Under the pieces are notes generated by a model, which saw only the letters and a program-made list of their open reading frames with translations, was not told the origin of the DNA and did not search any database. A stretch of 61,062 nucleotides of DNA from Bacillota bacterium (GTDB taxonomy: Bacteria > Sysuimicrobiota > Sysuimicrobiia > Sysuimicrobiales > Segetimicrobiaceae): the NCBI GenBank assembly GCA_021324255.1, contig JAJPJL010000109.1, positions 1-61,062 on the forward strand, in the 5' to 3' direction. Made by a program: the position numbers and the translations under genes. Shown here piece by piece: positions 31,262 to 58,406 of this stretch (position 1 is its first letter; each line of letters starts with the position of its first letter).

Positions 31262-31665
31262 TCCCCCTTGCGTGCTGTGATGTCCGGGGGCGGGCAGGAA
31301 CCTGGTCGGCTTGAGTATCCGTGTTTTCTCACGCCTCGCAAGCCACCCTGCACGCACCCGCGCTGCACCCGTCCCGGGATCTCACCCTGTCGTGCCGCCC
31401 CCTCCTTTCGGGTGAGCGTCCCGCTCGCAGCATTTTGCCGCTGGAGCGAGTGAGAGCCGGTTCGAATCAAATGAACGACACGAGACACTTCATGCTATTC
31501 GGCGCAATATTCGGTTGTCAACCGGACCACAAACTTTCCGGATTCTTGCTACGACGGGAGCGGATGATTTCCTCCCTAGCGCCAGACAAATCAGACCCCC
31601 CATGACGGCCGTATGTTCGTATCCCGGTCGGTTTTCGCCGGTTTCTCTATCACGAGGCCGCGCGT
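31262..31665. other. Long leader and promoter region of the porin gene, 404 bases
   Basis: Markedly more AT-rich than the surroundings in 31440-31620. It contains the promoter at 31492-31521 and a roughly 225-base leader for the porin mRNA. No protein with a ribosome site, riboswitch or tRNA is recognised; GGTTCGAATC at 31459 has no cloverleaf around it. Confidence 0.6.
31492..31521 (-). promoter_or_regulatory. Putative sigma-70 promoter of the SLH porin gene
   Basis: Minus strand: -35 TTGACA (31516-31521, perfect), 18-base spacer, -10 TAGCAT (31492-31497, four of six). Predicted start near 31485, giving a leader of about 225 bases before the ATG at 31261. Confidence 0.55.
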
Positions 31666-43167: not shown

Positions 43168-44187
43168 CTACGGCGTGCGCTCCAGGCGGGCGACACGGCG
43201 GCGCAGATCCGCGACCTCGCGCAGCAGCCCCGGCACGCGGCGCGCGGCCGCATCCCGGCGGCGCTCCTCCATCCTCGGGCGCGCCGGACGCCCCGCCACC
43301 ACCGCGCCCGGCGGGATGTCGCGCGTGACCTCGCTGCCGCCGAGCACGACGGCGTCGTCGCCCACCGTCACGTGGTCCGCAACCCCGGTCATGCCGCCCA
43401 TGAGCACACGGTTGCCGATCCGGGCGCTGCCGGCGATCCGGCACCCCGCGGCCATCGCCACGTCCTCGCCGATCTGCACGTTGTGCCCGATGTGCACGTA
43501 GTTGTCGAGCTTGGTTCCGCGGCCGATGCGCGTGACGCCGAGCGTGGCCCGGTCCACGGCCGCGTTGGCGCCGATCTCGACGTCGTCCTCCAGCACCACC
43601 ACCCCGACCTGCGGAATGAGCACGTGCCGCCGGCCGGCGTCCTGCGCGTAGCCGAACCCGTCGCTGCCGATGACCGTGCCGCTCTGGAGCACGACGCGGG
43701 CGCCGGCGACGCAGCCGTGCCGCACCGTCACGCGGGGATGCAGCACCGCGTCCGCGGCGATGCGGACGCCGTCCTCGAGGACCGTGTGCGCGCCCACCGC
43801 GGCCCGGTCGCCGATCTCGACGCCGTCGCCCACGACCACGTACGGCCCGAGCGAGACGTCCGTCCCCACGCGGACGCGCGCGCCGAGGACGCAGGTCGCG
43901 TGGATCCCGGACGGGGGCGGCGCGGGCGGGCCGAGCGCCCGCAGGGCGAGCGCGAGCGCGAGGCGGAGATTGGCGATGCGGATCGCCGGCAGCCGCGTGG
44001 GCGGCCCGTCGGGCGCGAGGATGACGGCCGCGGCGACGGCCTCCAGACGGGCGAGCATCCGCGCATCGGACACGACCACGACGGCGCCGGGTCCGGCGTC
44101 GTCCGGGGCGCTCACGCGGACCACCTCCACGTCCGGGTCGCCGTCGAGCCGCCCGCCCACCGCTCTCGCCAGGTCAGCGAGGCGCAC
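43168..44187 (-). CDS. lpxD: UDP-3-O-(3-hydroxyacyl)glucosamine N-acyltransferase
   Basis: Third lipid A enzyme, 339 aa. The N-terminal uridine-binding domain (RLADLARAVGGRLDGDPDVE, VRVSAPDDAGPGAVVVVSDA) is followed by a long left-handed helix of hexapeptides (ARVRVGTDVSLGPYVVVGDG, AVGAHTVLEDGVRIAADAVL). Then comes the catalytic His region NYVHIGHNVQIGEDVAMAAG near residue 235 and a C-terminal helix (LLREVADLRRRVARLERTP) that packs in the trimer. Starts 10 bases after an OmpH-like gene ends, so Skp and lipid A genes run as one transcript. Confidence 0.96.
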   Translation of the reverse strand: MRLADLARAVGGRLDGDPDVEVVRVSAPDDAGPGAVVVVSDARMLARLEAVAAAVILAPDGPPTRLPAIRIANLRLALALALRALGPPAPPPSGIHATCVLGARVRVGTDVSLGPYVVVGDGVEIGDRAAVGAHTVLEDGVRIAADAVLHPRVTVRHGCVAGARVVLQSGTVIGSDGFGYAQDAGRRHVLIPQVGVVVLEDDVEIGANAAVDRATLGVTRIGRGTKLDNYVHIGHNVQIGEDVAMAAGCRIAGSARIGNRVLMGGMTGVADHVTVGDDAVVLGGSEVTRDIPPGAVVAGRPARPRMEERRRDAAARRVPGLLREVADLRRRVARLERTP

Positions 44188-44197
44188 GTCCGCGGCG

Positions 44198-44599
44198 CTA
44201 CTTCAGGAGGTCGATGACTTGCTGCGTGACATCCCGGCCGCCGAGCACCGACGAGCTCTTGACGATGACGAGCCGCAGGCCGTCCTGTCGCGCCACCTTC
44301 GCCGCCGCGTCGTGGAGCTGTTGATTGAGCTGATTCTCGAGATCGCCGCGGAGCTGCGTCAGCTCGGTCATCAGGCTCGCCCGGCGCGCGTTGAGCTCGG
44401 CCGCGCTCACCTGACCGTTGAGCACGGTCAGCTCGGCGACCATCTGCTTCTCCCGGTCGTCGAGCTGCTTCTGGTACTCCAGCGCCTTGACGCTCTCGTT
44501 CAGCACCCGCTGGGTGTCGACCACCCCGATGCGCGGCCCGCAGCCCGCCAGCAGCACCGCCGCCGCCAGGATGAGGGCCGTCCCCCCGAACCGCGACAT
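44198..44599 (-). CDS. Skp/OmpH-like lipoprotein
   Basis: A 133-aa periplasmic chaperone-type protein. The start is the ATG at 44599, with GGGAGG 5 bases upstream. The signal ends in a lipobox (LLAGC, Cys-20), so the mature protein is lipid anchored, unlike soluble Skp. The core opens RIGVVDTQRVLNESVKALEY (the OmpH signature), has a coiled-coil arm (LTQLRGDLENQLNQQLHDAA) and ends LRLVIVKSSSVLGGRDVTQQ. Skp shields unfolded barrel proteins on the way to BamA; here it lies beside bamA and two more copies. Confidence 0.88.
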   Translation of the reverse strand: MSRFGGTALILAAAVLLAGCGPRIGVVDTQRVLNESVKALEYQKQLDDREKQMVAELTVLNGQVSAAELNARRASLMTELTQLRGDLENQLNQQLHDAAAKVARQDGLRLVIVKSSSVLGGRDVTQQVIDLLK

Positions 44600-44615
44600 C
44601 CCGACCTCCCGCATG

Positions 44616-45860
44616 TTACCGTTTGATGCGCGCGATCAGCTCGTCTGTGATGTCCGTCGTGTCGAACGTCGCCACGGTCTGCGTGAGGACGACGTCGTAG
44701 CCGTGTTGCTGCGCCAGCGCGGCCGCCTCGACCCGCAGATCCGCCAGGATCTCCGCCATGAGGCGCGCGCGCTCGGCCTGAGCGTCCCGCAGCTGGGCGT
44801 CGAGGGCCTGGCGCGCCGAGCCGGCGTTGGCCAGCGCCTGCTGCTCGGCGCGCGTGATCTCGGCGCGCGCCCCCTGGACCAGCGCCTGCTGGCGCGCCGC
44901 GAGCTCGGCCTGCAGCTTGGTGTGCATCTCCTGGTTCATCTCGGCCTGCTTCGCCACGAGCGTGTCGTGGAGGCGGTCGTTGAGCTCCTTTTCCTTCTGC
45001 GCCACCTGCTGCTGCGCGCTCTGGTTGAGTTGGGTCTGCAGGTCCTTGAGCTGCTGCGTATACGCCTGGTTCTGCTGCTGTTGGAAGTCCTGCAGCGCCT
45101 GCTCGTTCGCCTTCTCGTGGGCGGCGATCTTGTCGTCGCGTTCCTTGGTCATTGCCTGGATCTGCTGATTGAGGCTCTGCTGCTGCTGGCGGTTGCCGGT
45201 GGTGGCCGCGTCGCGCTTGAGCTGGAGGTTGAGCAGCGGTAGCCGGTACTGTTCCAGGACCTGCTGCTGAAATTGCTCGTTGTCCTTGTCCAGCGCCTGC
45301 TGCTTGTCCTGGATCGCCTTGCTGATCTGGGCCGCAAGCGCCTGCTGCTTGTCGTTGAACTCGGCTTGGGTCGACGCGCGGAGCTGGGCGACGAACGCAT
45401 CCAGCTCCTTCCGCGCCGCGTCCCGCAGCGCCAGCGCCGTCTGGTTGAACTGCTGCTGGTACTGGGGCTTGATCTGCTCGAGCTCCTGCTGCGCCGCGGC
45501 GCGGATCTGGGGCTGCAGGTCGATCTGCGGCATCTGGAACTGTGGGGCCGTCGGCACGGCCAGCTCGGCCTGGAGCCGGCCGATACGGCGGTCGAGCGCG
45601 TCGACGTCCGGCCACCGGGGGTGGGCGTGCAGCGCGCGCGTGAAGTCCACCACCGCGACCTTCGGTCCGACCGGCGTGGTGGCGGCCGGCGGCGGGGCGG
45701 CCGGCCGGGAGCTCGAGGTCCGGCCTTGGCAGGCCGAGAGCGAGGCGGCGAGCACCGCGACGGCGCACGCCCGGCCGAACGCGCCCGCGACGCGGGCGCC
45801 GGAGCCCGGGACGCGGCCGGCCCCGGGCCCTGGGATCACCGGGATGCCACGTCCGCGCAC
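44616..45860 (-). CDS. Extended Skp/OmpH-like lipoprotein with long Gln-rich coiled coil
   Basis: A 414-aa relative of OmpH/Skp, almost three times the usual length. It has a lipobox (LAASLSAC, Cys-44), then the OmpH start KVAVVDFTRALHAHPRWPDV. Residues 90-370 are a nearly unbroken coiled coil rich in Gln and Ala, with blocks EFNDKQQALAAQISKAIQDK, QQQQSLNQQIQAMTKERDDK and QVAQKEKELNDRLHDTLVAK. It closes with the OmpH end GYDVVLTQTVATFDTTDITD. Such long arms would reach far into the periplasm. It starts 6 bases after the next OmpH gene. The true start may be later than 45860, since residues 1-25 are Gly/Pro/Arg rich. Confidence 0.88.
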   Translation of the reverse strand: MRGRGIPVIPGPGAGRVPGSGARVAGAFGRACAVAVLAASLSACQGRTSSSRPAAPPPAATTPVGPKVAVVDFTRALHAHPRWPDVDALDRRIGRLQAELAVPTAPQFQMPQIDLQPQIRAAAQQELEQIKPQYQQQFNQTALALRDAARKELDAFVAQLRASTQAEFNDKQQALAAQISKAIQDKQQALDKDNEQFQQQVLEQYRLPLLNLQLKRDAATTGNRQQQQSLNQQIQAMTKERDDKIAAHEKANEQALQDFQQQQNQAYTQQLKDLQTQLNQSAQQQVAQKEKELNDRLHDTLVAKQAEMNQEMHTKLQAELAARQQALVQGARAEITRAEQQALANAGSARQALDAQLRDAQAERARLMAEILADLRVEAAALAQQHGYDVVLTQTVATFDTTDITDELIARIKR

Positions 45861-45866
45861 GCGCGC

Positions 45867-46322
45867 TTACTTCCCACTGATGAGCTTGATAACCTGATCC
45901 GTGAGGTCGACCCCGCCGTAGAGCACCACCGTGCGGTCCAGCACCACGCTCACGCCCTGCTGCGCGGCGACCTTCTGCACGGCGGCCCGGATGTCTTTGT
46001 CCAGGCCGCCGAGCAGCTCGGCGCGCTTCTGGAGAATTTGCTGGTCGACCTGATTCTGCAGCTGCTGGCGCTGCCCGGGCGACATGTTCTTCATCTTCTG
46101 CTGCGCGTCGGCGATCTGCGCCTGCGCGTAGTCACGGAGCGCCGACTCCGCGGACGCCTTGCCCGGATGGGCGTTGAGCGCCCGCTGCATGTCCACGAAG
46201 CCGATCGTCCCCGCCTGACTGCCGAAGACCGGCCCGGGCCGCGTCGCGACGTACCCCGCCGCGGCCAGCACGACGATCACCGCGACCGCGACCGCAATCC
46301 ACTTCACGTTCCACCGCATCAT
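45867..46322 (-). CDS. Skp/OmpH-like periplasmic chaperone, membrane anchored
   Basis: A 151-aa OmpH-family protein with an N-terminal helix (WIAVAVAVIVVLAAAGYVAT) that has no clear cleavage site and may stay as an anchor. The core opens GTIGFVDMQRALNAHPGKAS, continues through a coiled-coil arm (QQKMKNMSPGQRQQLQNQVD), and ends SVVLDRTVVLYGGVDLTDQV, all as in OmpH. AAGGGGG lies upstream of the start. First of three OmpH-type genes after bamA in transcription order; the sequence shares the 'DVTD-x-V-I-x-L-I' end with the other two. Confidence 0.9.
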   Translation of the reverse strand: MMRWNVKWIAVAVAVIVVLAAAGYVATRPGPVFGSQAGTIGFVDMQRALNAHPGKASAESALRDYAQAQIADAQQKMKNMSPGQRQQLQNQVDQQILQKRAELLGGLDKDIRAAVQKVAAQQGVSVVLDRTVVLYGGVDLTDQVIKLISGK

Positions 46323-46389: not shown

Positions 46390-48366
46390 TCAGAATGTCG
46401 TCCCGGTGGAGATCCACAGCTGCCCTCCCTCCGGGCTCACACCGTAGTCGACGCGGAAGAGCCCGATCGGCGTCTTGGCCGCGATCCCGAATCCGTAGTC
46501 GACCTTGAGGTTCGTCGGCAGCGTCCCGTACGGCTCCGTGTCGCCCGCGTCCGCGAAGACGATGCCGGTGATCCCGCCGATCCCCTTGAGGAACGGGAGC
46601 GTGTTCAGCGGGAAGCGGTACTCCCCCGTCACGATCGCCATGTCGTCGCCGCGAAACCGCCCCGCCGCGTAGCCGCGCAGCGAGCTCTGTCCGCCGAGGT
46701 AGAACTGTTCCTGGATGGGAAGCGGGCCGCTTCCGGCCCCGAGGTGCACGTGGCCGACGATCGTGGCGTTGCCGGTCGGCCAGTACTGGACGAAGTCCAT
46801 CTCGTACTTCTCAAAGTTGAAGTCGCCGGCGATCGCGGACTCGGTGCTGAGCTGGATCTCCTGGCCGCGCGTCGGGTTGATGGGGTCGTCACGGGTGTCC
46901 TGGAGCGCCCCGAGCAGCACCGCGTTGACGGTCCCGGGGGTGAAGACGAAGCCGCTCGGGACCGTCGAGCTGGTCAGCAGCGACGGCCCGAACTGCGTGT
47001 TGACCGACTTGATCCCATACGTGAAATACCGGTTGGGCGCGGTGTGGATCGGCGTGGTGAACGTGACCTGACCGCCCGTCTGGTACATCGTGTACTGGAA
47101 CGAGTTGAACAGGCCGAGCGAGTAGTCGGTCGGGATGGTCGTCTGATTGAACGCCTGAAAATCCATCACCGTGCGCGTCCCCTCGAAGTACGGCTCGTGG
47201 AACGTCAGGGTGAAGTTGTTGCCGTTCAGCACGGTGCTGTCGTACGAGGCCCCCACGGTCTGCCCGTTGCCGCCGAAATCGATGTCCTGCACGCCGACCA
47301 AGCCGGCGAGGCCCGTCACCGTGCTGTAGCCCGCGCCGAAGCTGAGCGTGGCCGTGCGCTGCTCGGTCACCGTGATCGTGACGTCGACCGTATCGGGCTG
47401 CGTGCCCGGCCCCGGATCGGCCTTGACGTCCGAGAAGTACCGGGACGCGAACAGCTTCTTCAGGCTGGCGTTGACCGCGTCGACGTTGAACACGTCCCCC
47501 GGCTTGAACGTCAGCTCCCGGCGGACCACGTAGTCCTTCGTCTTGTGCAGCCCGACGATCTTGATGGCCTCGATCCGCCCCTCCGTGATCGTAACGGACA
47601 GCACACCCTGCTCGTTCACGGAAATGTCGGACACCCGCGCCAGCGCGTAGCCCTTGCTCTGGTACAGGCGCTCCACGGCCTGCGCGCCCTGGCGCATCGC
47701 CACGGTGTTGAGCACTTGACCGGTCGGCACGTTCATCGTCTTGCGGACGTCGTCCGTGGAAATAACGGTGTTGCCCATGATGCGCACGTCGGAGACGACC
47801 GGGTTTTCCGCGACGATGAACACCACGGTGACGCCGTTCGCCGCCGGCTCGAGCCGGAGCACGGCGTCGGCGAAGAGCCCGAGGCCCAAGATCGCCTGGA
47901 CGTCGTTGCGCAGGCGGTCCTCGTTGAGCGGGTCGCCGGGTTTCGTCGAGACGACCTGGAGGATCGTGGCCGTCGGCACGTGCTCGTTACCGCGCACCAC
48001 CACGTCCAGCACCTTCTGCGGCGGGAGCGTCTGCGGGGGCGCGCCGGGAATCGGCTGGAACGGAGACGGCGCCGCGGGGGCCGGCGTGGTGACGGGTGGC
48101 GGGGTGGCGGGCGGGGTGGCGGGCGCCGGTTGCGGCTGACTCGGCTGCGGCTGGGCCGGCGGCGCCTGCGGCGCGCTGGGGGAAGGGATCGGCGACGGAT
48201 TGGGCTGTGCCGGGGGAGGCACGGGCGACGGATTTTGCTGTGCCGTGCGCGGCATCGCCGGTTGCGCCGTTACCCACCCGGAGCCCGGCCACGCCAGCAC
48301 CATGGCCCAGACGAGGCTTCCGGCCACCGCGCGAACGGCTTGCATCAGTCGCTTGGGCACACCCAC
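46390..48366 (-). CDS. bamA: Outer membrane protein assembly factor BamA (three POTRA domains)
   Basis: Omp85 insertase of 658 aa. The GTG start has GGAGG 5 bases upstream. The signal peptide ends near AWPGSGWVTAQP, followed by an unusual proline-rich linker of about 75 residues (SPVPPPAQPNPSPIPSPSAP). Three POTRA domains follow (about 115-345), in contrast to five in proteobacterial BamA: VLDVVVRGNEHVPTATILQV, VVSDVRIMGNTVISTDDVRK, IEAIKIVGLHKTKDYVVRRE. The 16-strand barrel contains the conserved lid-lock motif SLRGYAAGRFRG near residue 575 and ends GGQLWISTGTTF, with a terminal Phe. Chaperone genes lie directly downstream. Confidence 0.95.
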   Translation of the reverse strand: MGVPKRLMQAVRAVAGSLVWAMVLAWPGSGWVTAQPAMPRTAQQNPSPVPPPAQPNPSPIPSPSAPQAPPAQPQPSQPQPAPATPPATPPPVTTPAPAAPSPFQPIPGAPPQTLPPQKVLDVVVRGNEHVPTATILQVVSTKPGDPLNEDRLRNDVQAILGLGLFADAVLRLEPAANGVTVVFIVAENPVVSDVRIMGNTVISTDDVRKTMNVPTGQVLNTVAMRQGAQAVERLYQSKGYALARVSDISVNEQGVLSVTITEGRIEAIKIVGLHKTKDYVVRRELTFKPGDVFNVDAVNASLKKLFASRYFSDVKADPGPGTQPDTVDVTITVTEQRTATLSFGAGYSTVTGLAGLVGVQDIDFGGNGQTVGASYDSTVLNGNNFTLTFHEPYFEGTRTVMDFQAFNQTTIPTDYSLGLFNSFQYTMYQTGGQVTFTTPIHTAPNRYFTYGIKSVNTQFGPSLLTSSTVPSGFVFTPGTVNAVLLGALQDTRDDPINPTRGQEIQLSTESAIAGDFNFEKYEMDFVQYWPTGNATIVGHVHLGAGSGPLPIQEQFYLGGQSSLRGYAAGRFRGDDMAIVTGEYRFPLNTLPFLKGIGGITGIVFADAGDTEPYGTLPTNLKVDYGFGIAAKTPIGLFRVDYGVSPEGGQLWISTGTTF

Positions 48367-48429: not shown

Positions 48430-49008
48430 CTAGAAAGCGCTGGCTGGACGACCTGGATCTCCAGGCGTGACGAACTCGTCCACTCGCGGTTCGTTCGTGG
48501 AAGTTGGCTTGACGTGTCCAAACTGAGACATCAACTCATCCACCACCCGCGGATCCCCGGGTGCGGTCCCGGCCCCGAAGGACGCCGCGGTATCGGGCGC
48601 ACCGGCCGCGCCCGGCTGCAACAGCGTGAAAAAATCTCCGGCGTCCAGCCGGACGGAAGCCCAGGACTCCCCGGCCGGCCTCAGCGTCACCGCGGGCGTG
48701 TCCGCCGACGCGGCGCGCTCCGAGCCCGAGCCGCCGGCGAGAAACGTCGCGTACGCGGCCGCCGCGACGACGACGGCCGCCGCGACGGCGACGGCCGTCG
48801 CGGCAACGCTGCGGCCCCGGGACGCCCGTGCAGGCGCCTCCCCGGCGCTGTGCGATCCGGCCTCGCGGGCGTGCCGGACCTCCGCCTCCGCCAGCAGGAG
48901 CCGCAGGACGGCGCCGTGCACGTCGCCGTGCCGGTAGTCACTCCGCGCCCAACGCAGCCACTCCTCGGCGTGCCGGAGGTGGCGAAGCAACACGTCCCGC
49001 TCGCGCAT
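48430..49008 (-). CDS. Membrane-anchored partner of the sigma factor (putative anti-sigma)
   Basis: A 192-aa protein. The cytoplasmic N-terminus is helical and charged (RHLRHAEEWLRWARSDYRHG, VLRLLLAEAEVRHAREA). One membrane helix follows (residues 68-90, TAVAVAAAVVVAAAAYATFL) and then a roughly 100-residue extracytoplasmic part (ESWASVRLDAGDFFTLLQPG) ending in a flexible tail. The layout matches anti-sigma factors, and it begins 5 bases after the sigma gene on the same strand. No anti-sigma family (RskA, ZAS) motif such as H-x-x-x-C-x-x-C is present, so the role is inference from context only. No homologue recognised. Confidence 0.75.
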   Translation of the reverse strand: MRERDVLLRHLRHAEEWLRWARSDYRHGDVHGAVLRLLLAEAEVRHAREAGSHSAGEAPARASRGRSVAATAVAVAAAVVVAAAAYATFLAGGSGSERAASADTPAVTLRPAGESWASVRLDAGDFFTLLQPGAAGAPDTAASFGAGTAPGDPRVVDELMSQFGHVKPTSTNEPRVDEFVTPGDPGRPASAF

Positions 49009-49013
49009 CGTGC

Positions 49014-49667
49014 CTATTCGTGGACTCCCTGCGCCCGCAGGCCGCCGGTCACCGGTGCCACCAACTCCCGGATCCGCCCGAGCGCGTGCTTCTGCAGGCG
49101 GTAGAAATGGGACAAACTGATCTTCAGTTCGCCGGCGATGCGGCGCGGTTCCTCCGCCCCGAGAAATGAGCCGTGCAGGATCCGCCGCTCGCGCGCATCG
49201 GGCAGACGGTCGATCGCCGCGACGATCTGCTCGACCAGCACCTCGTCTTCCACCGCGCCGAGCAAGTCCGTGGCCGCCGGATCCGCGACGCGCTCCAGCA
49301 AGGCCTCGTCGTGCCCCGACACGTCCCGCGCCGCCGGCCGCTCGCGCCGGAGCGCGTTGAGGATGCGGCCGCGAATGCGGAACGTCGCGAACGTGCTGAA
49401 CCGCACGCCGCGCGCGGGATCGAACCGTTCCACGGCCTCGATCAGGCCGACGGTCCCTTCCTGGATCATGTCCATGACGATCGTTTCGCGCAGCCGCAAC
49501 TGCATGGCCACCTTGAAGACGAGCGGCTGATACGCCTCGATCAGGCGCGCGCGACTCCGCCCGTCGCCGCGATCCCGGTAGGCCCGCCACAGCCGCGCCT
49601 CGTCGGCCGGCCGCAGCAGCACCACCTTTTGCAGTTCCCGCAGATATTCTCCGAGCAACCGGATCAC
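49014..49667 (-). CDS. Sigma-70-family RNA polymerase sigma factor
   Basis: A 217-aa sigma factor with regions 2, 3 and 4. The start is the GTG at 49667, with GGGAG 4 bases upstream; sequence upstream is not convincing. Region 2.1-2.2: EAYQPLVFKVAMQLRLRETI, then MDMIQEGTVGLIEAVERFDP (core-binding). Region 2.3-2.4: GVRFSTFATFRIRGRILNAL (promoter -10 recognition). Region 4.2 is the helix-turn-helix AGELKISLSHFYRLQKHALG. It is larger than ECF types (it has region 3) and closest to the FliA/WhiG/SigF-like alternative group. It sits between tamB and bamA with a membrane-bound partner, so envelope control is likely. Confidence 0.92.
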   Translation of the reverse strand: MIRLLGEYLRELQKVVLLRPADEARLWRAYRDRGDGRSRARLIEAYQPLVFKVAMQLRLRETIVMDMIQEGTVGLIEAVERFDPARGVRFSTFATFRIRGRILNALRRERPAARDVSGHDEALLERVADPAATDLLGAVEDEVLVEQIVAAIDRLPDARERRILHGSFLGAEEPRRIAGELKISLSHFYRLQKHALGRIRELVAPVTGGLRAQGVHE

Positions 49668-49762
49668 GCTCCCATCCCTACAGTATCCGCGCCGCGCGCA
49701 CCGGACTCTCCTCATGGCACACGGGCGGGCGGCTCGGTGGGCGATGGTCGAGCGACCGGGCG

Positions 49763-52700
49763 TCAGAACGGAAAGCGCGTGAGCAGGAATACGCCGCTCT
49801 CGCCCAGGCTGTCCACATTATACGTCAGCGACACGCTCGGGCTGAGGTAGTACTGAATGCCGAGGACCGTGTACGGCTGGCCCGACGGGTTGAGCGGCGC
49901 GAGGCTGCCGATCGAGGGCAGCGTCGTCACCGACGAGCGGCCGATCACCTCGCTGAGTGACAGGTAGACGTTCTTGAAGATGTACTTGCCGATCTGCAGC
50001 GTCAACGGGCTCTGCGTGTCGTAGGAAATGGTGAGGGTGTCGAGACGAAGCGCCTGCTGCAGCGTCTGCGTGATCGAGCCCAACACCATCTGGCTGAGGA
50101 ACGCCGTGGGCGACCCGCCGGACGCGCCGCTCGTGCCCGCGACGAGCGCCAGAATCTTGTCCTGGGCCATGGGTGGGTCGGAGCTCCACGTGATCGCCGG
50201 CGAGGGGAGCACGCCGTTGATGTCGAGGAACACGCGCGTGTCGCCGTACATCGCCTGCGCATGCGCGGAGATCTGGGGGTTCAGGCCGCTCGCCTCGGAG
50301 AACACGACGCTGCCGTCCGTGACCGTGTAGGGCGTGCCAAACAGCGCCAGCGTCCCGTTGAGCGCGCGGATCTCGCCGGACAGCGCGGGACGCGCCAGCG
50401 TGCCGCCGACGTGGATGCCGCCGCTGAGCTCCGCCCGCACGGGACCCTGCGCATACGCGACGTTGTCCCCGAGCTTGACGGCGACGTCGAGGCCGACCGG
50501 AATCGGCCCGCCCCCGCCGGCCGCGGGCGATGCGGCCAGCGCAACCTGGCCGTGGGACACGGTGACGTCGCCGGCCAGCGTCGGCTGCGTCGCAGGACCC
50601 CCGAGATGCAGCGTGCCGTCGAGGCCGCCCGAGTACAGGCCCGGTATCTGCAGGGTCACCCCCTTGGCGGCGAGGTCGAGCGCCACGGTGCTCGGCTGCA
50701 GGTTCTTGATGCCGATCGTGCCCTGCGTCTCCATGGTGCCCGCGCCGACCGTCGCCGACAGGCTCCGCACGAGGATCTCGGACTGGGAAAACGCGATGTC
50801 CGCATTGACGTTCTCGATGGGCGTCGCCACCGGGGCAAACCGGAAGCGACCGCCGTGCGACTCGACCGTCCCGCTCATCAGGGGGGCGGCCACCGTACCG
50901 CCGATCGACACCTGCCCGGCCACGGTTCCGCTCGCGTCCTGGATCTCGGGCGTGAACAGCGTCAGCAGGCTGAGATCGGCGTCCTCCAACGACACCTGCA
51001 CCTTGAGCGGTCCGTCCGGCGCCGGCGTGAACCGGCCGGGGACGAGCGGGACGGTGCCCGCGACGAGGAGCTTGCGCGCCCCCTTCTCGATGGTGCCCGT
51101 CTCGATCGTAACGATCCCGTCCTTGTAGAAGGCGACCGATGCCATGCGGTCGGCGGTCGCACCCGGAATGCCCGCCCCGAACGCCTCCATCGACAGGCCG
51201 GCCGTGGGATTATCGGTCGGCCCCGTCCACTGCATCGTGAAGTTCAGCGAGCCCGCGAGCGTCTGGGTGGTATGGAAAAACGGGCGCAGCACGTTGGCGT
51301 CCAGGTTTTGGCCCGAGACCTCCACGTCGCTCGTGCCCCGCAGCTCGACGCGACCCTGTGCCGCGAGCTGTCCCTGAGCGGGGGAGAGCACGAGCTTCCG
51401 GATGTCCACGGTCCCGTGGGTCAGCGTGAGGTCCGCGGTGCCGGTGCCGACGGGCACCCCGCCGACTTCGCCGTCGTGCATGGACAGCGCGAGGTGCGCC
51501 GCGGGATCGGACAGCGGCCCCTGCAGGCCCACGGTGCCGTCGATCGTGCCGCGGACCGAGATCGCCGGGGTGATGCCGGCCGCGGCCACGACGGTGTCGA
51601 TGCGGCCGCGCTCGACGCTGAACGTGAGATCGGCGGCGGGCCGCGGGCCGTCGTAGACATGCCCCGTGACGCGGTACCGCTGATCACCCTGCGAGAGCTG
51701 GAGCGGCGAGAGCGTGAGCGTGTGGCCGCGGTAGTCCACGACGCCGGACGCCTCGAACGTCTGGCCGTGAATCGAGAGGTTCGGGGACACGAGCGTGCCG
51801 GAGAGGTCGGGGTCGCGAAGCGTGCCCGTCACCGCGCCGGACAAGCTCACCGTCCCGTCGGGGGCGAACCCGAGCGTGCCGATGGACGGAATATCGGCGA
51901 GCCGTACGCCGTCGGCGCTGAGGCTCAGGTCGAGCGCCCCGGAGAGATCGATCGTGCCCGACGCGTTGAGCCGCGAGTTGTGGATCCGCGCGGTGGCCGT
52001 CTCGATCCGGATGCGCCGCCCGTCGCCCGTGAACCGCGCGCTCATGCCATCCACCGGCTGGCCGCTCACGGTGCCGCCTGTGAGGGAGACATCGCCGGAG
52101 ACGGCCGGGTGTGCCAGCGGGCCGTTCGCGGCGAGCCGTCCGGAGACGGTGCCCGCAATGCCGACTCCCGGCGCCAGCGCGCGCACCCACGGCGCCAGCG
52201 CCACTCCCTGCATCTCTATGGAGAGATTCTGCGCCACCGGCGGATCGAACGCGATGCCGCCGTGGACCCGGTACGCGGTCGCCGCATCCACCACGGCGAG
52301 CCCGGACGTCTCCGCGGTGCGGGGCCCGATCACGAGCGCGCCGGACGCGAGGTCGAACGGCGCGGGGCCGATGTGGCCGTCCCACGCGACGACGTCGCCG
52401 GAGAGGACGGGCGCGCGGAGCGTGCCGCCGAGGCGGCCACTGAGGTTCGCCACGCCGGCCACGGACAGCGGGGGGCGCGCGGCGCTCGGCAGACCGGCCC
52501 ACCCGGGCGCCTGATCGAGCGGAATCCCGTACGCGGAGAGGCTCAGGTCGAGCCCGCCCCACGGCGCGATGGTGCCCGAGGCATAGACGTCCGACGCACC
52601 CTTTCGCACGCCGAGGAAGTCCAGGGCGACCGACCCGCCGTCGTCCCACACGAGGGTGTTGAGGTCCTGAAATGTCACGCCCCGGATCGACCCGGCGGGC

Positions 52701-54187
52701 ATCGAGACCGCGGCGAGCACCTGCACGCGTCCCCCACTCTGCACGCCCGCGATCGCGCCCGAGGCGCGGCCCGTGAGATCTCCGATCGGCGGGAGCCCCA
52801 GGGCGGGGAGCGCCGCGACGTCGATCCCGGACGTCGCGGCCGTAAAGGCGTAGGACCCCGCGCCGCCGGACACGCCGACGACGCCGTCACCCGTGATGCG
52901 CCCGCCGCCGATGCTCGCCGTGAGCCCGCGCAGGGCCAGCACACCGGCGCCGTATTGAAACCGGGCGCGGAGGTCCGCAAAGGCTTCCCGGTTCAGGCGG
53001 CCCCGGGCCGACGTGACGTCGCCGTCGAGATAGGGCGCGCTCACCGGGCCCGTGATCCAGAGGTGTCCGCTGGCCTGCCCCGCGAGCCCGAGACGGGCGG
53101 TGGGAAAGAACAGGCTGCGGACCATTCCAAGATCGAGCCGCGGGGAGGCGACGACGAGGTCGAGCCACGTCGCGGCGCCGCTGGGATAGTTGACGTCCCC
53201 CCGAAGCCGCACGGCGGATCCGTTCGCGTCAAAGGACAGCCCGGGCGTCGACACACGCCCGTCACCGAGGATCAGCTCGCCGGACACCCCCCGCAGCGCG
53301 ACGTGGCCGGGCAGATATTCGGCCGCGGCGTCGCGGAGCTGAACGGTCCCGCCGTAATCGAGCGTCATCCCGTCTGCCATGGACGTGATGAGCAGGTGGA
53401 CACGCCCATCGAATCGTCCCCCGGCCCACCGCACCTGGCGCAGGCGCACGATGTAGTTGCCCCACCGGCGCGCGTCGCCGTTCGTTGCCGTCACGTCGAG
53501 GTCGTAGATACCGTCGCTCGGCAGGTACCGTCCGCGGCACGCGACGTCCTCCCCCTCGGCGCTCCTCGCCGTGAGGTTGAACGCGATCTCGTGGCTGCGG
53601 CCGAAGTCGAGCGCGCCGGCGACGCGCGAAAACTTCGATACAAAGGGCGTGGCGGGCGACTCCCAGCCGTCGCTGTACCCGACGAGACCGTCGTCGATCA
53701 CGATGCGGCCGCCGTATCCGGGGCCGAGGGGCCCGGCCTGCTGACTCGCCAGCAGGCCGGCGAGATTCCACGCGCCGGAGCCGTTCCGCGACACCGTGAG
53801 CCGTGGACGCCGGAGACGCACCTCCGTCACTGCCTGGAGCGGATTGTCGGGGTGGCGCACAAACGCGGCGAGGTCGAGCGTTACGTGGACGCGGTCCGCG
53901 GAAAAGATCACGCCGCGGCTGAACCCGCCGGGCTCCGCGATCACGAGATCGCGCAGGTCGATCCCGCGGATCAGGTCCCCGCCGACGCCGCCGAGCGCGA
54001 CCGGCCGGCGGAGCGTCTCCTGAAGGCGGGCCACGAGGATCTGCCGCACCTGGCCTGCGATCCAGCCGCTCGACACGAGGATGACCCACGCCGCGGCCGC
54101 GGCGGCGAGCACCACGGCCGCGGCGATCGCGCCGGCCCGCCAGCGGGCGCCGCGTGTTCGGCCCGGCCGGGGCGATCCCGGCGCCAC
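49763..54187 (-). CDS. tamB: Translocation and assembly module protein TamB
   Basis: A 1474-aa protein of the AsmA/TamB bridge family. One N-terminal helix (GAIAAAVVLAAAAAAWVILV) anchors it in the inner membrane. A beta-groove follows, built of about 40 repeated strands such as VSGDVSLTGGTVSGQPVDGM and LSGTLVSPNLSIHGQTFEAS, which can carry lipids between membranes. The C-terminal DUF490 core has VAYAQGPVRAELSGGIHVGG, LARPALSGEIRALNGTLALF and ILALVAGTSGASGGSPTAFL. It ends ESGVFLLTRFPF with a final Phe. TamA (Omp85) is not here; BamA may serve. Starts 6 bases after the S55 gene ends. It is the largest gene in the window; an equally long frame on the other strand is only its shadow. Confidence 0.94.
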   Translation of the reverse strand: MAPGSPRPGRTRGARWRAGAIAAAVVLAAAAAAWVILVSSGWIAGQVRQILVARLQETLRRPVALGGVGGDLIRGIDLRDLVIAEPGGFSRGVIFSADRVHVTLDLAAFVRHPDNPLQAVTEVRLRRPRLTVSRNGSGAWNLAGLLASQQAGPLGPGYGGRIVIDDGLVGYSDGWESPATPFVSKFSRVAGALDFGRSHEIAFNLTARSAEGEDVACRGRYLPSDGIYDLDVTATNGDARRWGNYIVRLRQVRWAGGRFDGRVHLLITSMADGMTLDYGGTVQLRDAAAEYLPGHVALRGVSGELILGDGRVSTPGLSFDANGSAVRLRGDVNYPSGAATWLDLVVASPRLDLGMVRSLFFPTARLGLAGQASGHLWITGPVSAPYLDGDVTSARGRLNREAFADLRARFQYGAGVLALRGLTASIGGGRITGDGVVGVSGGAGSYAFTAATSGIDVAALPALGLPPIGDLTGRASGAIAGVQSGGRVQVLAAVSMPAGSIRGVTFQDLNTLVWDDGGSVALDFLGVRKGASDVYASGTIAPWGGLDLSLSAYGIPLDQAPGWAGLPSAARPPLSVAGVANLSGRLGGTLRAPVLSGDVVAWDGHIGPAPFDLASGALVIGPRTAETSGLAVVDAATAYRVHGGIAFDPPVAQNLSIEMQGVALAPWVRALAPGVGIAGTVSGRLAANGPLAHPAVSGDVSLTGGTVSGQPVDGMSARFTGDGRRIRIETATARIHNSRLNASGTIDLSGALDLSLSADGVRLADIPSIGTLGFAPDGTVSLSGAVTGTLRDPDLSGTLVSPNLSIHGQTFEASGVVDYRGHTLTLSPLQLSQGDQRYRVTGHVYDGPRPAADLTFSVERGRIDTVVAAAGITPAISVRGTIDGTVGLQGPLSDPAAHLALSMHDGEVGGVPVGTGTADLTLTHGTVDIRKLVLSPAQGQLAAQGRVELRGTSDVEVSGQNLDANVLRPFFHTTQTLAGSLNFTMQWTGPTDNPTAGLSMEAFGAGIPGATADRMASVAFYKDGIVTIETGTIEKGARKLLVAGTVPLVPGRFTPAPDGPLKVQVSLEDADLSLLTLFTPEIQDASGTVAGQVSIGGTVAAPLMSGTVESHGGRFRFAPVATPIENVNADIAFSQSEILVRSLSATVGAGTMETQGTIGIKNLQPSTVALDLAAKGVTLQIPGLYSGGLDGTLHLGGPATQPTLAGDVTVSHGQVALAASPAAGGGGPIPVGLDVAVKLGDNVAYAQGPVRAELSGGIHVGGTLARPALSGEIRALNGTLALFGTPYTVTDGSVVFSEASGLNPQISAHAQAMYGDTRVFLDINGVLPSPAITWSSDPPMAQDKILALVAGTSGASGGSPTAFLSQMVLGSITQTLQQALRLDTLTISYDTQSPLTLQIGKYIFKNVYLSLSEVIGRSSVTTLPSIGSLAPLNPSGQPYTVLGIQYYLSPSVSLTYNVDSLGESGVFLLTRFPF

Positions 54188-58376: not shown

Positions 58377-58406
58377 ATTATAGGCATTGGCGATTCTCAC
58401 TGTCAA
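58377..58406 (-). promoter_or_regulatory. Consensus sigma-70 promoter inside the wecB stop codon region
   Basis: Minus strand: -35 TTGACA (58401-58406), 18-base spacer, -10 TATAAT (58377-58382), both perfect. The TGA stop of wecB is part of the -35 hexamer. The predicted start is near 58370, about 20 bases before the GTG of the lipoyl-like gene. Confidence 0.8.

Follow-up and report, generated by a model that had tools for sequence, protein, structure and literature searches.

What are a sigma factor and a membrane-anchored protein doing in the middle of a gene cluster for the outer membrane? We addressed this question on a 61-kb contig of Candidatus Sysuimicrobiota, a phylum formerly named CSP1-3 that takes in CSP1-3 and ANGP1 metagenome genomes; the window is this whole stretch of DNA (61,062 nucleotides). 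In the openly licensed literature that we searched, there is no description of how outer-membrane assembly is sensed and regulated in diderm Firmicutes and related bacteria. We consider it probable that the pair is a module of a sigma factor and a membrane-anchored regulator, dedicated to outer-membrane assembly and regulating itself.

The pair and its surroundings

The sigma-70 family factor (217 aa, 49014..49667, stop codon at 49014-49016) and its partner (192 aa, predicted single-pass, 48430..49008) lie on the reverse strand, as do all the genes of the cluster given here, and the gap between them is 5 bases. Upstream of the pair lies tamB (49763..54187; PF04357, 162 bits) and downstream lies bamA (46390..48366). 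For bamA, the TIGR03303 match of 259 bits is below the cut-off of 297, yet the POTRA and Omp85 domains are present. On the 3' side of bamA, profile matches identified three OmpH/Skp-like genes (45867..46322, 44616..45860, and 44198..44614) and lpxD (43168..44187), followed by the remaining lipid A genes. The coordinates and the 5-base gap given for the pair in the initial annotation were confirmed, and the domain matches bore out its placement inside an outer-membrane locus flanked by tamB and bamA.

The same locus was described as the "diderm cluster" of Negativicutes and Halanaerobiales, with tamB, bamA, Skp/OmpH genes, and lpx genes (Antunes 2016, PMC5007114; Poppleton 2017, PMC5491611). 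The searched texts of these two studies do not mention the sigma factor and the partner as a pair. In the openly licensed literature, we found no paper that mentions this sigma factor in connection with Negativicutes or diderm Firmicutes; a description may exist elsewhere.

The sigma factor matched region 2 of the sigma-70 family with a clear margin (Sigma70_r2, PF04542: 72.7 bits against a cut-off of 24), and TIGR02937 matched residues 38-201 with 93.8 bits (cut-off 42.9). For region 4, the PF04545 (Sigma70_r4) score of 18.2 bits was under the cut-off of 24.1; the TIGR02937 match extends over this region, and the predicted model has four confident helices there. Residues 7-40 can be aligned with region 1.2 of RpoS/SigA, which gives the protein a region-1.2-like N-terminus; a full sigma2 follows, then a short linker replacing sigma3, and sigma4. 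The given start is GTG at 49667, and an alternative TTG at 49658, aligned with the start in relatives, is possible.

We considered known classes for this protein. A plain ECF sigma factor (group 4) lacks sigma3, as this one does, but the region-1.2-like N-terminus does not belong to that class. The initial annotation had called it FliA/SigF-sized; this holds for the size but not for the family, since the models for FliA/WhiG (TIGR02479, 75.3 against 189.6 bits) and SigB/F/G (TIGR02980, 78.6 against 234.35 bits) scored far under their cut-offs. Besides the sigma70-ECF superfamily model, only the sporulation sigma factors SigK/SigE aligned over most of the protein, with scores far under the cut-offs (for SigK, 66 against 252 bits) and a genomic context of the pair that is not related to sporulation. 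In a tree, all 52 members formed one group against 27 other sigma factors with low branch support (0.41), so we base orthology on synteny and similarity instead of tree topology.

For the partner, we found one hydrophobic segment, flanked by a net charge of +3 N-terminally and 0 C-terminally (medians over 95 family members), which predicts a cytosolic N-terminus and a periplasmic tail. In the window, the predicted span covers approximately residues 67-93 (48730..48810, reverse strand; from the sequence and family hydropathy and charge). This prediction agrees with the single-pass protein with an extracytoplasmic tail proposed earlier. The best-kept part of the protein is not the periplasmic portion but a cytosolic stretch of about 55 residues, predicted confidently as a helical hairpin, in which W-L-x-x-A is invariant and L.L.LA.AE.....E conserved (family motif A..WL..A......G.L.L.LA.AE.....E). 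The tail after the span, periplasmic by prediction, has 73-191 residues and is Pro/Ala-rich. Most partner families terminate in a conserved peptide like DLIDLVLAAERSLRG, with the C-terminal motif DLI.LV..AER.LRG; this motif is lost in the window's family. Several partners of that family end in a terminal phenylalanine (SAF, PRF, or PTF; window 48430-48450, reverse strand, and loci L040, L217, and L218).

No known anti-sigma motif had been seen in the partner, and Pfam likewise gave no match in any of the 23 members searched, including the zinc anti-sigma, FecR_N, RsgI_N, and RseA domains. An NCBIfam "antisigma" match in 1 of the 23 members (E 4e-4) is too weak for use.

When modeled by AlphaFold with the cytosolic domain of the partner, the sigma part rose from a pLDDT of about 79 alone to about 87, and the pTM from 0.48 to 0.60; the alignments differed between the two runs, the stop codon is read as glycine in the joined chain, the joined alignment includes seven in-frame read-through rows, and the comparison rests on the confidence of the sigma residues, not on interface scores. 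Thus read, the joined model backs a contact between sigma factor and partner only indirectly.

Pairing and distribution

The sigma factor was found in 35 of the 43 genomes of the window's phylum (matches with E < 1e-40) and, always as a single copy, in 98 of the 120 sampled Negativicutes, the class of Pelosinus. It was also present in other diderm Bacillota and in five of the seven genomes of a UBP15-like phylum, where it adjoins tamB only and bamA is not adjacent. By sequence comparison, the recurrence of the order tamB-sigma-partner-bamA across phyla is far above chance expectation. At E<=1e-8, the genomes of Veillonella (G045) and Megasphaera (G048) each yielded no more than one or two sigma matches, that of the pair included.

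The check that the initial annotation named on the presence of the partner beside the sigma gene in related genomes came out in its favour. At all 97 untruncated sigma loci, the partner lies 3' of the sigma gene on the same strand (three of these partners were missed by the gene caller and recovered by a six-frame search), and it is absent where the sigma factor is absent. At one locus (L195), a 3.2-kb insertion parts the two genes, and the partner still adjoins bamA.

Among 299 Bacillota, the 19 genomes with the sigma factor were all positive for Omp85/bamA, and none of the 223 Omp85-negative genomes carried it (Fisher P 8e-13). In all 19, an Omp85 gene is on the same contig, a few kb from the sigma gene. 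The remaining 57 of the 76 Omp85-positive Bacillota manage without the pair, and the bamA locus of 20 Omp85-positive genomes lacking the sigma factor showed no remnant of the sigma gene or the partner gene. Neither gene was found in three Sysuimicrobiota genomes (G035, G036, and G042), where tamB directly adjoins bamA. This joint absence at an otherwise retained locus indicates that the sigma factor and the partner are gained or lost together. A locus from the class of Pelosinus (L176, genome G295) keeps the Negativicutes-type order before tamB, has neither gene, and has tamB directly adjoining bamA; it is a natural comparison for loss of the circuit.

A promoter-like box and its targets

In the window, the gap between tamB and the sigma gene contains a promoter-like box, GGATACTGTA (49679..49688, reverse strand), 11 bases before the sigma start codon, and a like box is present in 11 of 11 family members. 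A candidate -35 element, GAGAGT (49705..49710, reverse strand), was located by eye 16 nt before the box, with similar elements in other family members. The partner gene directly follows sigma in this family, and the box precedes the sigma gene in 11/11 genomes and never lies at the junction of the two genes. In 19 of 22 genomes from other Sysuimicrobiota families, GGATA[CT]TA is found at the junction, where it overlaps or adjoins the stop codon of the sigma gene. The numbers expected for these two placements are 0.2 and 0.03, and no genome shows both. Many of the junction-box sigma proteins end in Gly-Tyr-stop, probably as a side effect of the DNA sequence of the box.

In Negativicutes, GGATAnTA recurs in the gap between sigma factor and partner, about 35-45 nt before the partner start. 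Over 79 non-redundant loci, leaving out the window's family, GGATA.TA preceded the partner in 23, against 0.96 expected (largest shuffle 5), and it was found before 21 of 89 partner genes as compared to 6 of 730 other genes at the same loci (P 1e-16). Genomes from the same family do not count as independent, and within families the significance is therefore overstated by the shuffle-based figures; the recurrence of the box across phyla escapes this kinship problem. The position of the box shifts with the gene arrangement, and thus it heads whichever transcription unit holds the partner.

In 16 Sporomusaceae genomes of 3-5 Mb, a 31-nt form, ACCAnAATCTGGCCTCTTnnCAnGAnTATAT, occurs exactly once per genome and always in the gap between sigma factor and partner. 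The box region of the Sporomusaceae gaps (L290-L305) also has the palindrome CCAGAATCTGG together with a conserved spacer, which suggests a possible second DNA-binding regulator. The Veillonella loci L057, L062, L064, L067, and L068 share a strictly conserved leader some 90 nt ahead of the partner start; within it, CCTTTCTTAC is able to base-pair with GTATGAAAGG across the ribosome-binding site. This leader may be an RNA switch for translation of partner and bamA.

Regarding targets, the pair had been proposed as a possible envelope-stress circuit with its own neighbours as regulon. Such a regulon is supported for the unit of sigma factor, partner, and bamA, which has the conserved promoter-like box, and not supported for the S55 genes, which are boxless; a promoter shared by bamA, the porin, and the S55 genes was not recovered, as neither bamA nor the S55 genes have an exact box in the window. 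The porin fits weakly: it has a one-mismatch site, GGATACTCAA, and relatives show GGTCACT or GGACACT inside a conserved GAGAAAACACGG element, so we did not count this near-match, which is not kept. That element, GAGAAAACACGG-[AT][TC]ACTC, is located 60-100 nt upstream of the SLH-domain porin gene (window ~31300-31335, reverse strand; L352, L353, and L354). Sites upstream of bamA in the window's family (GGAGTAT/GGATTAT) were too few and were dropped after the box before sigma was found.

A search for a wider regulon in 10 genomes found no enrichment of GTTnnA-N17-GGATAnTATA over the reversed control, and GGATACTNTA occurred three times in the window's genome versus six for its control. In two genomes of the window's genus, a secreted-protein gene is preceded at 60-82 nt by a second conserved GGATACTATA (L341 and L342; G000:C103:30389 and G026:C108) and is a possible second target.

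The window also has a housekeeping promoter, TTGACA-N18-TATAAT, with 12/12 consensus positions (58377..58406, reverse strand), at the start of a same-strand gene run with a lipoyl-like gene, two S55-like genes, tamB, the sigma factor, the partner, and bamA. Thus, in the window's organism, tamB and bamA need not depend on the sigma factor of the pair.

Regulatory readings of the pair

Obligate pairing, a fixed place, joint absence, the predicted topology of the partner, and a box heading the partner's unit are all read directly from the genomes. Obligate pairing, joint loss, this topology, and a box that is always before the partner are the pattern expected of a feedback pair of sigma factor and membrane regulator. 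Moreover, the partner has two features of a membrane-anchored anti-sigma factor: gene adjacency and co-inheritance with sigma (97/97 loci, joint absence) and, as predicted over 95 members, a cytosolic N-terminus, one span, and an exported tail.

In the mechanism we propose, the cytosolic hairpin of the partner would hold the sigma factor at the inner membrane, its Pro/Ala-rich tail would extend into the periplasm, and in most families the conserved C-terminal peptide would read the state of envelope assembly. Upon a signal, the sigma factor would be set free to transcribe from GGATAyTA-type promoters; we infer from the placement and co-occurrence of the box that it is recognised by this sigma factor. 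The free sigma factor would raise its own brake, the partner, together with bamA further downstream. Such a loop would therefore be small and self-limiting, with very few targets.

The box could instead be read by a different sigma factor, for instance as part of a housekeeping promoter, or serve as operator for another regulator, in which case the pair would not regulate itself. The conserved Sporomusaceae spacer and palindrome go beyond what a sigma factor alone explains, the Veillonella site has a TATAAT-type promoter, and the -35 elements vary between lineages. We regard this as unlikely, however, because GGATAyTA differs from TATAAT, follows the position of the partner's transcription unit, and is almost absent before bamA in genomes lacking the sigma factor (1/20). 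The partner itself could be a positive transmembrane regulator of the FecR kind, required to activate sigma once a protein of the outer membrane or periplasm engages its periplasmic tail. FecI/FecR also combines a sigma factor with a single-pass membrane regulator of the same topology, the conserved C-terminal periplasmic peptide of most families would suit contact with an outer-envelope protein, and joint presence and absence fit equally well. Unlike FecR, none of the 23 partners has a Pfam match, FecR-type domains included; no TonB receptor is adjacent, bamA being the only neighbouring candidate for a receptor; the sigma architecture is different; and autoregulation of the regulator is equally typical of anti-sigma feedback. 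Altogether, this makes a FecR-like role distinctly unlikely.

It is very unlikely that the partner has a structural or accessory role in TamB/BamA assembly, for example as a periplasm-spanning inner-membrane adaptor, and that the sigma factor is merely its operon-mate. The partner's span and Pro-rich tail resemble VirB10-type adaptors (weak, composition-type matches), and it adjoins bamA even with 3.2 kb between it and the sigma gene (L195). Despite this, none of the 20 sigma-less loci checked has a partner, and conservation is strongest in the cytosolic hairpin, not in the periplasmic part.

Returning to the self-regulating module, its best reading by analogy is a functional parallel, from unrelated parts, of sigma-E (RpoE)/RseA of Escherichia coli, where the rseP-bamA-skp-lpxD genes are sigma-E targets. 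Both have a sigma gene beside the gene for a single-pass regulator with a periplasmic tail, and the proposed wiring from sigma factor to bamA is alike. Here, the sigma factor differs by its region-1.2-like N-terminus, the partner has no RseA domain match, the pair is inside the tamB-bamA cluster, and no RseB-like gene was seen. SigI/RsgI of Bacillus and Clostridia likewise joins a sigma factor with an adjacent single-pass membrane protein with an exported tail; unlike RsgI, the partner has no RsgI_N match and a short tail without carbohydrate-binding domains, and in the sampled genomes the pair is present only alongside an outer membrane. Lacking a defining anti-sigma domain, the pair was not filed under the sigma-E/RseA, FecR, or RsgI families.

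A broader proposal, which we hold only tentatively, is that diderm Bacillati (here Sysuimicrobiota, Negativicutes, other diderm Bacillota, and UBP15-like bacteria) have in this pair a hitherto undescribed sigma/anti-sigma system for the envelope, deeply conserved and seated in the operon of tamB and bamA. It would use a promoter class to itself (GGATAyTA) and have essentially no target beyond its own locus. It would be an independent counterpart of the Proteobacteria sigma-E and possibly ancestral, dating back to a diderm ancestor that these lineages have in common.

At least three lineages carry the pair and a common promoter-like box, in what looks like an undescribed switch adjusting outer-membrane assembly. 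A sigma/regulator pair inside the core outer-membrane cluster is a testable entry point in the cultivable Veillonella, Pelosinus, and Megasphaera, and its distribution bears on shared regulatory as well as structural ancestry of the outer membranes of these lineages.
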